46,979 nucleotides of DNA, from NCBI GenBank assembly GCA_005877075.1, contig VBPX01000009.1, forward strand, positions 23,524 through 70,502, read 5' to 3'. This DNA comes from Nitrososphaerota archaeon. GTDB taxonomy: Archaea > Thermoproteota > Nitrososphaeria > Nitrososphaerales > Nitrososphaeraceae. The notes under the pieces are model-generated. The model saw only the letters and a list, made by a program, of their open reading frames with translations. It searched no databases and had not been told where the DNA came from. The translations under genes and the position numbers were made by a program. The stretch's first letter is position 1. The number at the start of each line of letters is the position of its first letter. This document shows positions 846 through 5,780 of this stretch, in pieces.

Positions 846-853
846 ATGAAATA
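846..853. repeat. Left target-site duplication ATGAAATA
   Basis: The 8-mer ATGAAATA directly abuts the left transposon end (GGTTCTGTTCG at 854) and recurs at 3765-3772 directly beyond the right end. Eight bases is the duplication length known for IS6-family insertion. Confidence 0.7.
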
Positions 854-860
854 GGTTCTG

Positions 861-876
861 TTCGATTAAGGGACAT
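861..876 (+). repeat. Left terminal inverted repeat of the transposon
   Basis: TTCGATTAAGGGACAT is an exact reverse complement of 3744-3759. With the preceding GGTTCTG it forms a terminus resembling IS6-family ends. Confidence 0.75.
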
Positions 877-1008
877 TGATTTGGATTTTTCTAGAAAAAG
901 AGGAGAGTCCATTAACAATTCCTACGATCTACTATGATTCCAATAAATAATACCGTCGGTGTAAATTAGCGGAACATGGTATAATAAGTAATAACTCTAA
1001 AAATAAGC

Positions 1009-1500
1009 ATGGTCGAATTTGATGAAATTCAAAATTGGTTACGTAATTCAGGCATTAATATAATATCAGATGACGATGAGATAAGAAAGTATATACAATC
1101 TCGCCCAAATTACTTACATTTACTCAAGGCTGACGTTCCAAATACTGAAGTCAGTTTCAGAGTGCATTATGAAGACCCCTCAGGAGAAAGTTTCGATATT
1201 AGAACCGCTAGATGTTTTAATCAACAAGATGAAGTAAATTTTTCTCGGTTATCGGAGACTAAAAGACAAAGATATTACATGGATTTAAGAAGAATTGCTT
1301 ATCCCTTTGGACTTAACGTGGTGGTATATCCTGACTCTTATGACGCACATTTTGTGAAAACTTTTTTTGTAGTTGGACTGACTAAACAATATTTCTTCGA
1401 TAGGTTATTCGACTTTATACATGCTTCAGAATTTCTGATAATGGCATATCATAATTTAAGTGGAACGAGTTCAGTGGTTGACCCTAAGGATTTAACCTAG
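1009..1500 (+). CDS. Transposon passenger protein, DUF2299-like
   Basis: 163 residues, ATG start, no signal peptide or membrane segment. The layout is a short N-terminal helix (FDEIQNWLRNSGI), a beta-rich middle, a charged segment (LSETKRQRYYMDLRR) and a C-terminal helical stretch (TKQYFFDRLFDFIHASEF). This order recalls the archaeal family of unknown function DUF2299, but the match is from memory and no catalytic motif is visible. It is the only gene on the plus strand inside the transposon, starting 133 bases in from the left 16-mer repeat, so it is likely cargo. Its role is unknown. Confidence 0.6.
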   Translation: MVEFDEIQNWLRNSGINIISDDDEIRKYIQSRPNYLHLLKADVPNTEVSFRVHYEDPSGESFDIRTARCFNQQDEVNFSRLSETKRQRYYMDLRRIAYPFGLNVVVYPDSYDAHFVKTFFVVGLTKQYFFDRLFDFIHASEFLIMAYHNLSGTSSVVDPKDLT

Positions 1501-1659
1501 GTTCATAAATAAAATTATAATCTTCAATTTTATATTTTTTAATATGACGTTCCCTTTCGAATACCTTAAGTTTTTCCATAACTCAGTGATCAATTTCAGT
1601 TTGATATGAACTAAATTAGATTATTCGACTTGAATTTTGTATTATTGTTAACTATTATT

Positions 1660-1965
1660 TTACCCTTTATGTAATTTCTTTTGCACTCGTCTTTCCCATT
1701 CCTCGTGGTTTAATTGTCCTCTTTCTTCTAGGATTTCTGCTAAACTTGAAATCATTACATCATGTATGTCTAATTCAGATGCAATTTGTTCATTACCTGT
1801 AGATTCTTTCTTTCGTCTAGATTTCAACAGGTAACCTTTTTCTATCAAATATGCTAACACCAGATTACGTATGATTTCCGAATCAGCATTACCTAATTGA
1901 GGTCTTAACTCCTTGTCTATTATATCCCAAGCCCCATCAGGTAATGATACTAATGTTCTTCTCAT
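1660..1965 (-). CDS. Ribbon-helix-helix protein co-translated with transposase
   Basis: 101 residues. The N-terminus has the CopG/Arc-like pattern: a short beta strand (RRTLVSLPD) followed by two helices (GAWDIIDKEL and SEIIRNLVLAYLIEKG). The C-terminal half is charged and probably helical. Its ATG overlaps the transposase stop by four bases (1962-1965), so the two are translationally coupled. RHH proteins of plasmids and toxin systems bind short iterated operators as dimers, and a six-copy TATATC array lies upstream of the transposase. Role as autorepressor or transposition accessory factor is inferred, not shown. Confidence 0.72.
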   Translation of the reverse strand: MRRTLVSLPDGAWDIIDKELRPQLGNADSEIIRNLVLAYLIEKGYLLKSRRKKESTGNEQIASELDIHDVMISSLAEILEERGQLNHEEWERRVQKKLHKG

Positions 1966-2810
1966 TTTTGAATCACCTTTAATTCTTGTTTCGTGTTGTA
2001 TATTTGTGATTGTTGGATCAATTCATTCCATCCTTCAATTTCTAAACCTGCCTTTCTTGCTGGTGTAGTCTTTATTGAAGAATGTTTTCTACAAAAATTG
2101 TAATTGATTACATAACCATCTAACAATTCTCGAGATGATTCGTCATTCTTCAATCCGCGAAAAACCCTACCTCGAGTTTTCAATGTGGAATGAGCGCGTT
2201 CTATTATGTTGTTTGTCTGTCTTGCTCTAATCCCTACACGTCTAACCCACTGGACTCTATTTTCTTTATATCGTGTAAAGTATACTTTTCTGAATGCTTC
2301 ATCATACGAATATGAACCATCAGTAAATAACACTTTAGGTCTCTCTTTTCGTAACGCCTGTTGAAATACTTTGATTGCATTCTCCCTAGTTCTGTCGGAA
2401 GTTAGCAAATGTGCTACGATATATCGTGTATCTTCATCTAATGTTTGCCAGAAATATCTACCATCCTCATTTACTTTAAGTTCAGTTTCATCATGGTGAT
2501 ACTTACCAGATAATATCGGGGTTAAACTTTCAACATACTCTTTTGTAAGTGTTGCATACTTATGAATCCAATAATGAATTGTTGATTGTGATACATTTTC
2601 GCCAAAGATATTATTCACTTGTTCGGAAACTTTTCTCATTGATAGTCCATCATAATACAAATTTAGAGCAGTGACAATGACTTTAGCATCTTTTCTCATT
2701 CTGGCAAAATTGATATTATTATCGAAGTTATGCTCACAATCCTTGCTCACAATCCTTGCAAAGATATCTTTGAATATTGAATCTCTTACCATGTTTAACG
2801 ATGTTTTCAC
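1962..2810 (-). CDS. IS6-like DDE transposase
   Basis: 282 residues. An N-terminal helix-turn-helix region (about 40-95, with SMRKVSEQVNNIFG and SQSTIHYWIHKY) precedes an RNase-H-like core. Visible acidic residues are D107 in HHDETELKV, D164 in LFTDGSYS and E204 in NNIIERAHSTLK, the D-D-E order and context of IS6/IS240 transposases, with the family-typical R-FRGLK after the glutamate. The gene looks intact. It catalyses replicative transposition in this family. The RHH gene overlaps its 3' end, and the TATATC array begins 25 bases upstream of its start. Confidence 0.9.
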   Translation of the reverse strand: MKTSLNMVRDSIFKDIFARIVSKDCEHNFDNNINFARMRKDAKVIVTALNLYYDGLSMRKVSEQVNNIFGENVSQSTIHYWIHKYATLTKEYVESLTPILSGKYHHDETELKVNEDGRYFWQTLDEDTRYIVAHLLTSDRTRENAIKVFQQALRKERPKVLFTDGSYSYDEAFRKVYFTRYKENRVQWVRRVGIRARQTNNIIERAHSTLKTRGRVFRGLKNDESSRELLDGYVINYNFCRKHSSIKTTPARKAGLEIEGWNELIQQSQIYNTKQELKVIQK

Positions 2811-2834
2811 CCTGACAAAATTTACATTCCAACG

Positions 2835-2900
2835 TATATCTCTAATATATCATATCTATATCATAATATAAATATATCGTATATATATCAAAAGTATATC
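2835..2900. promoter_or_regulatory. Phased TATATC iteron array upstream of the transposase
   Basis: Six exact TATATC copies start at 2835, 2846, 2857, 2873, 2884 and 2895, with spacings of 11, 11, 16, 11 and 11. This gives two triplets on one DNA face. The array covers 25-90 bases upstream of the transposase start and must overlap its promoter. An RHH protein encoded in the same operon is the natural candidate ligand (inference). AT-rich promoter DNA could yield some TATATC by chance, but not this regular phasing. Confidence 0.65.
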
Positions 2901-2966
2901 ACGTTGAATATAGTAAAGTATTTAGCTAACGCTTAAGTAATACCTGTAGCTCAAATTATTACAAAG

Positions 2967-3023
2967 TAGACAGGGATTCCCTAGGCCTTCAGGTTGAATA
3001 CCCTAGGGGCGTGCCCCTGTCTA
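2967..3023. other. Imperfect hairpin or inverted repeat
   Basis: TAGACAGGG (2967-2975) pairs perfectly with CCCTGTCTA (3015-3023), and inside it CCCTAGG (2979-2985) pairs with CCTAGGG (3002-3008). It is GC-rich against its surroundings. It lies about 75 bases downstream of the 204-aa passenger gene and upstream of the iterons. It could be a terminator, a structured RNA or a recombination site. No U-run follows on either strand, so a simple intrinsic terminator is doubtful. Confidence 0.6.
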
Positions 3024-3095
3024 AATCAAGTGTAAGAACAGCTGGTAAATAAAGTTCTCAGAGGACTGAATATATAACTGATCATTAGAACATGT

Positions 3096-3710
3096 TTAAT
3101 CCTCTTTAATCATTTGCATAGATAGTTCATGCCATTCAGGAGTAACATTAAGTCTGAATTTAGCACTTGTGGAATATCCATGCAATGTAGTTATTACCAA
3201 TTCAAAAACAAAGTTTCCTGTACTGAAAGTATCTTCTTTTCTGGGAAATTCTTTCCCGTTAAGACTCATTTGAGTTCCGACAAAAGCAGATTTACTTTCT
3301 TGTTCTGAGAATACAATGTTTAGAACTGAAAAACCTGTACGTGCACTAATATCTTCTTTTATATTTTTTTCAGTACTCCATTGCAAAATTTTTGGTTCTG
3401 TTTCAGGATTTTCGTTATCATCACTATTATTTTCTAAAACTCTTAATTTTGCCATACATTTTTCAGCGTAACCACGACCTGTGTTTTCAACAGCAACTCG
3501 TAGATACTTTCTCTTTGCAAGTCTTATATCGTATCGATATTCAAAGTCTTTAATGGGACAGTATGTTTTTGGTTCAGCATCTGGTTCGTAAACTATTCTA
3601 AGTTTTGGTTTACTAAAAAAGGGGCAAGTATCCCATAGCCGAAAAGTAGAGCCAATCTGACCAAAACTGTTGTTGCAACTACAGGAATAAGTTCCAAAGA
3701 CACTATTCAC
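3096..3710 (-). CDS. Passenger protein, N-terminal membrane anchor apparently frameshifted
   Basis: The continuous frame gives 204 residues from a GTG, but its first ~35 residues are odd (SCSCNNSFGQ). The neighbouring frame, from a GTG at 3703, encodes a convincing membrane helix (LIPVVATTVL, then RLALLFGYGILAPF) that would join the rest in frame if the T-run at 3615-3620 had seven bases instead of six. The body is beta-rich (KPKLRIVYEP, YLRVAVENTGRG, FRLNVTPEW), like an immunoglobulin-type or CARDB-like sandwich. The likely ancestor is a membrane-anchored beta-sandwich protein. It lies just inside the right transposon end. Function unknown. Confidence 0.6.
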   Translation of the reverse strand: MNSVFGTYSCSCNNSFGQIGSTFRLWDTCPFFSKPKLRIVYEPDAEPKTYCPIKDFEYRYDIRLAKRKYLRVAVENTGRGYAEKCMAKLRVLENNSDDNENPETEPKILQWSTEKNIKEDISARTGFSVLNIVFSEQESKSAFVGTQMSLNGKEFPRKEDTFSTGNFVFELVITTLHGYSTSAKFRLNVTPEWHELSMQMIKED

Positions 3711-3743
3711 TTTAGATGCCTCTTAGTATTTAAAGTTCGGCTG

Positions 3744-3759
3744 ATGTCCCTTAATCGAA
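3744..3759 (-). repeat. Right terminal inverted repeat of the transposon
   Basis: ATGTCCCTTAATCGAA is the exact reverse complement of 861-876. Five bases (GAGTC) separate it from the right copy of the 8-bp target duplication. Confidence 0.75.
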
Positions 3760-3764
3760 GAGTC

Positions 3765-3772
3765 ATGAAATA
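3765..3772. repeat. Right target-site duplication ATGAAATA
   Basis: Second copy of the 8-mer found at 846-853, at the outer boundary of the right transposon end. Confidence 0.7.
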
Positions 3773-4496: not shown

Positions 4497-4949
4497 ATGA
4501 CTAGAAAGAAGACGTTTTATGTTCTAATCCTAAGTGGCATTGCATTTATTATAATCAGTACCGCTTCAATGATTGATTCAAATATCCCTCGGAAAGTTGC
4601 ATTAGATAGTAAATTGAATCCTAGTTTAACTGACATTGTTACACCAATAATGAATAAAGGGAGTGTTGGAAAAATTATAATTGACGGATCAAAATTTGAT
4701 TTCAAGATTGAAGATCCAGATAAATCAGTAATTGTATCGGTTACTAATCGATCAAATTATGAATACAATTTAATTGCAAATAAAGGAGGAGAATTCAGAG
4801 TTGAAACAAAAAATACAGGGAACTCAGTACTCAATATTGATGGGGAAGTAGAAACTAAAGCCTCTTATTTGGCCTTTGGGGGACAAATGATGTTACTTAT
4901 AACAGGAATCATAGTCCTTGGTATTGGAATAAAGTCCAAGATTGCATAA
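4497..4949 (+). CDS. Membrane-anchored beta-rich protein, unknown function
   Basis: The frame is open from 4407, but the ATG at 4497 is preferred: it gives MTRKKTFYVLILSG, a positively charged N-terminus followed at once by a membrane helix, as in thaumarchaeal two-helix surface proteins. From 4497 the protein is 150 residues: helix 1 (about 7-27), an extracellular beta-rich domain (KIIIDGSKFDFKIEDPDKS and following), and a C-terminal helix (MMLLITGIIVLGIGI). No catalytic motif is visible. Convergent with pheA. Confidence 0.65.
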   Translation: MTRKKTFYVLILSGIAFIIISTASMIDSNIPRKVALDSKLNPSLTDIVTPIMNKGSVGKIIIDGSKFDFKIEDPDKSVIVSVTNRSNYEYNLIANKGGEFRVETKNTGNSVLNIDGEVETKASYLAFGGQMMLLITGIIVLGIGIKSKIA

Positions 4950-4961
4950 ATTGGTTGATAT

Positions 4962-5780
4962 TTAATTTATTGTTCCTCTTTTATACGAACCAAGTATCTT
5001 AAGAAATGTGCATTTCTTTTCAATTTTATTTAATGTTTTTTTAATATTATCCTCTTCAATGTGGCCTTCCAAATCTACATAAAAATTGTATTCCCAAGGT
5101 TTTTCTTTAATGGGTCTTGACTCTATCTTGGTAAGATTTATTTTATTATAATTAAACTCTTGTAAAACTGAAAATAACGAACCTGGTGTATGTTTTAGTC
5201 CAAAAATCAGTGAGGTTCTATCATTTTTAGCAGGACTCGTTTTTTGGTCAGAGAGTACTAAAAATCTTGTGAAATTGTTTTTCCTGTCTTCTATATTTTG
5301 ATCAAGAATTTTCATATCATAAAATTCGGCCGCATTTTTACTTGCAATTGCTGCAGCGTCAAGAATTTTTTTTTCTTTTATTAGTCTTACAGATCCGGCT
5401 GTATCATAAGTTGGAATTGAATTTAAGTTTCTGTTCTTTATATAATTCCTACATTGTGCTAAGGCTTGAGGATGTGAAAGTACCCTGGTAATTGTAGAAT
5501 TATTTGGCAATGCAATTAAACAATGATTGATTTTAAGAAATATTTCTCCGACAATTTTTTTTTCTGTGTCCAATAGGAGGTCGTATATCTCATTCACTGA
5601 ACCCTCAATTGAATTTTCAATTGGTACAACTGCACAATCAATACTAGAGTCATCTAAAGCATCAAAAATATCTTGAAAGAGTTTCATTGGAACAAGATTT
5701 GAGTTTGGAAAAAACTTTCTCGCAGCAATCTCACTATATGCCCCATATTCCCCCTGAAAAGCTACAATTAATTCTCTCAA
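4962..5780 (-). CDS. pheA: Prephenate dehydratase
   Basis: Converts prephenate to phenylpyruvate in phenylalanine synthesis. 272 residues, a normal length for a monofunctional enzyme. The N-terminal periplasmic-binding-like catalytic fold has FQGEYGAYSE (8-17), VPIENSIEGSV (52-62) and the catalytic Thr in NNFTRF (168-173). The C-terminal ACT domain (about 185-270, with PGSLFSVLQEF and the ESRP motif) binds phenylalanine for feedback inhibition. TTG start: the following MRELIVAFQG is the usual family N-terminus. Confidence 0.95.
   Translation of the reverse strand: MRELIVAFQGEYGAYSEIAARKFFPNSNLVPMKLFQDIFDALDDSSIDCAVVPIENSIEGSVNEIYDLLLDTEKKIVGEIFLKINHCLIALPNNSTITRVLSHPQALAQCRNYIKNRNLNSIPTYDTAGSVRLIKEKKILDAAAIASKNAAEFYDMKILDQNIEDRKNNFTRFLVLSDQKTSPAKNDRTSLIFGLKHTPGSLFSVLQEFNYNKINLTKIESRPIKEKPWEYNFYVDLEGHIEEDNIKKTLNKIEKKCTFLKILGSYKRGTIN

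Follow-up and report, generated by a model that had tools for sequence, protein, structure and literature searches.

A phased GATATA array in the promoter of an archaeal IS6-like transposase operon as a probable operator of the element's own ribbon-helix-helix protein

The array and the transposon that carries it

The 46,979-bp stretch of Nitrososphaerota DNA analyzed here (the window) contains six copies of one hexamer in front of a transposase (Tnp) gene, which raises the question of what these repeats do and which protein reads them. The initial annotation placed TATATC at plus-strand positions 2835, 2846, 2857, 2873, 2884 and 2895, with spacings of 11, 11, 16, 11 and 11 bp, and all six exact matches were recovered at these positions. 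On the transposase strand the hexamer reads GATATA. Followed in this direction, an upstream triplet (sites 1 to 3, 2895..2900, 2884..2889 and 2873..2878, minus strand) precedes a TATA-like box (TTTATATTAT, 2863..2872, minus strand), a downstream triplet (sites 4 to 6, 2857..2862, 2846..2851 and 2835..2840, minus strand) and the start codon; only 2 bp separate the last site from the probable start. The 120-bp promoter was shuffled 20,000 times with its dinucleotide content preserved, and none of the shuffled sequences contained six or more TATATC copies (mean 0.87) or at least four TATATC pairs at 11 bp. With the hexamer left free and spacings from 7 to 20 bp admitted, four such pairs arose in 4 of the 20,000 shuffles. 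At 10.5 bp per turn, the sites drift by 17 degrees per step inside a triplet, while the 16-bp gap rotates one triplet by about 190 degrees relative to the other; the six sites accordingly do not lie on one common face. The helix face originally thought to be shared by all copies is thus shared within triplets, and not between them.

The array resides in a 2911-bp cargo-carrying IS6-like transposon (854..3764), which is bounded by inverted repeats and an 8-bp target duplication (ATGAAATA, plus strand, left copy 846..853, right copy 3765..3772). The left terminal inverted repeat (GGTTCTGTTCGATTAAGGGACAT) spans 854..876 (plus strand), and its right counterpart, the outer tip of which has diverged, spans 3744..3764 (minus strand). 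Two passenger open reading frames, one for 163 amino acids (1009..1500, plus strand) and one for up to 204 amino acids (3096..3710, minus strand), gave no family match. The transposase gene (1962..2832, minus strand) encodes an N-terminal zinc ribbon and matches Pfam DDE_Tnp_IS240 (3.7e-19; 69.7 bits, cut-off 27); its best NCBIfam match, transpos_IS6, scores 118.5, just below the cut-off of 125. Translation of the zinc ribbon (LECKFCQGENIVKHGKRFNIQRYLC) begins at a TTG (2832), in place of which most sisters have ATG, and uses a frame that differs from that of the remaining protein. Because sister proteins start with the zinc ribbon read from this position, the original start is likely TTG 2832 rather than GTG 2810. 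A 13-bp tandem duplication (two copies of TGCTCACAATCCT, 2731..2756) lies between the zinc-ribbon and the catalytic frames. Since the zinc ribbon is split off at this duplication and contiguous with the catalytic part in sister transposases, the enzyme of this copy is probably inactive, unless the assembly is in error. The array and the frame for the ribbon-helix-helix (RHH) protein are intact despite the broken transposase frame. The only other copy found in this genome is a remnant of 606 bp with 84% identity that lacks the promoter; in this remnant (L062, contig C83 of genome G000, 4850-5454), the RHH frame is divided into two ORFs. Outside the element, near-identical 300-bp tandem direct repeats, apparently coding on the minus strand, occupy positions 1-700 of the window.

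The gene for the 101-aa RHH protein (1660..1965, minus strand) overlaps the transposase stop by 4 bp (1962-1965). The initial annotation was therefore right about this overlap and about the location of the array in the transposase promoter; the RHH gene, described there as lying beside the array, is in fact separated from it by the transposase gene and lies some 870 bp downstream. Taken alone, the 101-aa protein yielded no RHH match in Pfam; it aligns end to end with relatives that match Pfam RHH_1 (4 of the 19 aligned, best E 4.1e-6). A profile search of solved structures gave no useful match. In a single-chain structural model of low confidence (mean pLDDT 66.6), helices 10-19 and 27-42 appear as expected and residues 1-8, the expected N-terminal strand, remain below 50. 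The protein looks like the product of a gene fusion because in a sister clade (L070, L071, L073-L077) its C-terminal half is encoded as a separate ORF of 48-57 amino acids downstream of the transposase gene. This separate ORF is weakly SHOCT-like, one member of the fused type matching Pfam SHOCT at E 0.019.

Conservation of the array and parallel change of operator and regulator

Searches of related genomes yielded some twenty tnp-rhh loci. The same transposase family occurs in named records from Nitrososphaera, Ca. Nitrosocosmicus, other Nitrososphaerales, Bathyarchaeota and a Methanolobus. No matches were obtained for the RHH protein among named genomes, for the transposase among viral contigs or for the element among plasmids. 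The twelve sister elements with defined ends measure 1.9 to 3.9 kb, differ in their passengers and in eight cases are flanked by exact target duplications of at least 8 bp (8 bp in the window).

Divergent sisters, with transposases about 60% identical, share the 11-bp GATATA lattice in front of the transposase gene. When five sites are compared over six elements, identity reaches 93% in the hexamers and 41% in the spacers, the former figure being somewhat inflated because the registers were selected on the hexamers. L063 carries an exact 3+3 arrangement, L065 has 3+3 with two sites one base off, L072 has 3+2 with a degenerate first site, and L066 and L078 show the same registers with weaker sites. 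Sites 1 and 2 recur in register, site 3 is kept in five of the six aligned elements, sites 4 and 5 are identical in all six, and site 6 persists in three, unaltered in the window and in L063 and with a single difference in L065. A TATA-like sequence is present in the same gap of sister elements, and part of the conservation could serve the TATA region itself. The comparison of sisters suggested in the initial annotation accordingly bore out the 11-bp steps in several elements and not the spacing as a whole, for the gap between the triplets varies (16, 13, 18, 18, 19 and 18 bp in the six aligned elements). This variation speaks against one continuous RHH filament along one helix face; the out-of-phase gap points to two separate blocks instead. 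Less of the lattice is seen in L068, where the downstream pair alone is kept, and in L069, where the array is degenerate. An RHH gene without a phased array, which the initial annotation regarded as an argument against its proposal, was encountered once in the fused-RHH clade, namely in L064 with its single GATATA; the array is kept in others.

Within 400 genomes of the order, the exact pattern GATATA-N5-GATATA-N5-GATATA occurs four times, and all four occurrences fall in two such promoters, that of the window and that of L063. When one mismatch was tolerated, 14 matches were obtained, eight of them in four such promoters and six elsewhere, the latter number being about equal to the eight matches of a reversed control pattern. 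An 11-bp GATATA pair is found in none of 14 promoters of SWIM-type IS6-like transposases lacking this RHH gene, a group that serves as a control for this RHH gene and the GATATA motif only. Its use as a regulator-free control was abandoned, as several members have repeats of another kind and encode a divergent RHH protein themselves. In L047-L049, L053, L056 and L059, a divergent RHH-like gene for 45-51 amino acids is located upstream of the SWIM-type transposase gene, and intergenic repeats resembling TACCAATAGGTA and TACCTATTGGTA in this group possibly represent a second operator system.

In the phylogenetic tree, a single branch with 100/99 support separates nine transposases accompanied by a fused RHH protein (96-111 aa, N-terminus mostly RRALVSLP) from twelve accompanied by a short one (51-62 aa, KALVALP or RALV(S/T)LP). 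Behind the gene for a short protein there is usually a small helical ORF as a separate unit. Short-type promoters contain inverted sites, ATATCCATANNGATAT (CATATCC/GGATATG), and no direct 3+3 arrays. The inverted site is present twice in L070, L073, L075, L077 and L079, the weaker copy having up to three mismatches, and L074 and L076, likewise of the short type, retain one direct 11-bp pair beside the start codon. Bathyarchaeota and relatives have GGTATC/GATACC sequences in place of GATATA. In the sequences compared, the form of the putative operator thus tracks the RHH type, with direct repeats accompanying fused and inverted sites accompanying short proteins. In Methanolobus vulcani (L132), an AbrB-like 52-aa ORF (named from its sequence) occupies the place of the RHH gene after position 3367 and precedes a similar helical ORF. 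A GATATA array was not seen at this locus, where the DNA-binding module has possibly been exchanged.

Proposed function of the array and competing explanations

These observations lead us to regard the six GATATA sites, with good though not full confidence, as an operator for the RHH protein that the element itself encodes, located in the promoter of an autoregulated tnp-rhh operon. The corresponding proposal of the initial annotation gains in weight from a lattice that occurs in divergent sisters with the same RHH gene, is absent from the 14 promoters without it and changes its form along with the RHH protein. According to the model that we favor, RHH dimers would load side by side and perhaps cooperatively, about one helical turn per site, as two triplets bracketing the TATA-like box. 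Given archaeal promoter geometry, a TATA-like box at 2863-2872 predicts a transcription start among sites 5-6 and a BRE that coincides with site 3. Bound RHH protein would then cover BRE, TATA box and transcription start and shut out TBP/TFB and RNA polymerase. Transposase and RHH protein would be repressed together, and transposition would fall as the RHH protein accumulates. The array is very probably the site occupied by this protein, and its occupation would limit how often the element jumps.

Other origins and users of the array have to be weighed against this model. TATATC could simply recur by accident in an archaeal promoter that is AT-rich and of low complexity; the region is indeed very rich in A and T, and the hexamer is somewhat enriched over the whole window (65 observed versus 46.7 expected). 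However, the dinucleotide-preserving shuffles fail to reproduce the array, diverged elements conserve hexamers and not spacers, and the exact triple is confined to these promoters, which makes an origin by chance barely credible. Use of the sites by a host factor or by an activator, rather than by the RHH protein of the element, appears improbable. RHH proteins can activate transcription, as AvtR does at low concentration (PMC5569661), and RHH binding to GATATA is itself deduced from the comparisons above; yet the exact triple was found in no other promoter of the 400 genomes of the order, and the operator changes together with the element's own RHH type.

The transposase itself could also bind the array and use it, inside the element or near its end, for synapsis or for control of transposition. 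We judge this highly improbable, although a transposition control site had been considered in the initial annotation as well. Such a role would fit L066 and L074, in which the array is close to one terminal repeat, but L066 shows this proximity because its transposase gene adjoins the repeat. Across the sisters, the terminal repeat lies tens of base pairs to more than 1 kb from the array and 15 to 1734 bp from the open transposase frame, and the array remains at the transposase gene. In the window it lies more than 800 bp from the nearer element end, the opposite end is devoid of such sites and the terminal repeats do not contain GATATA. Every element with exact 11-bp GATATA pairs has them at the transposase start; neither the opposite end nor any passenger gene shows such a pair, and a single reversed TATATC pair in L077 is likewise placed just upstream of the transposase. 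The array follows the transposase gene and not the ends, which counts against a role as a transposition end site and leaves the RHH operator as the preferred reading.

Relation to known repressors and IS6-family elements

An RHH autorepressor with repeated operators is an already known kind of regulator. The archaeal RHH repressor F55 of virus SSV1 acts on tandem ATAGATAG repeats (consensus of 11 bases, ATAGATAGAGT; a promoter has at most two sites) that overlap BRE and start site, including those of its own promoter (PMC5569661). By operator layout, the system described here may be likened to F55, as both would involve an archaeal RHH protein of a mobile element and tandem repeats at BRE and start. 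In the tnp-rhh operon, GATATA repeats flank the TATA-like box on both sides, and their placement at BRE and start site as in F55 depends on the predicted start. F55 differs in that it serves a viral lysogeny switch at several promoters with two repeats per site, whereas here a single transposase operon has three repeats per site, with GATATA as the motif. Dimers of the RHH protein omega (ParB) of pSM19035 occupy contiguous 7-bp repeats in direct or inverted orientation, also at the centromere (PMC9499535). The element shares with omega the type of protein and the array of short repeats, presumably its binding sites, and is distinguished by 11-bp steps, exclusively direct orientation and a TATA-like box that splits the array. 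Dimers of the Arc repressor, also an RHH protein, bind half-sites about 11 bp apart, two of which make up one bacterial operator. A similar site spacing of about 11 bp is found in the window, in two direct-repeat triplets and in an archaeal promoter, unlike in Arc.

IS6-family elements encode a DDE transposase and have short terminal repeats with a GG tip and a cTGTt-like motif as well as 8-bp target duplications (PMC7986276). The terminal repeats and the target duplication have their counterparts here, and the DDE transposase resembles that of the family; unlike the family as reviewed, the element possesses an RHH gene and passengers. The review states that little is known about the control of transposase expression and names one passenger-carrying member (PMC7986276). 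A concrete candidate operator and regulator for IS6-family transposase expression, testable in vitro, is now at hand, and the RHH proteins found in nature, each type with its matching operator form, direct or inverted, make up a series from which rules of RHH recognition could be derived. Whether these elements form a group as yet undescribed, i.e., IS6-like archaeal cargo transposons with a built-in brake, we consider an even call. In such a group, an exchangeable DNA-binding protein, fused to a small helical partner or accompanied by it, would act on paired operators on either side of the TATA box, and the form of these operators would evolve with the regulator, and the AbrB-like ORF in RHH place in Methanolobus would belong to it. 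Literature searches that covered few of the subscription journals retrieved no paper combining IS6, archaea and ribbon-helix-helix, nor any that describes, for the transposase operon of a cargo-carrying IS6-like element, an RHH brake with paired TATA-flanking operators and parallel change of regulator and operator. Our findings also point to an archaeal IS6-like group with diverse passenger genes. Among the passengers, an ORF of L063 in minus orientation at 4925 (oriented coordinates) matches Pfam Proteasome (1.2e-11).
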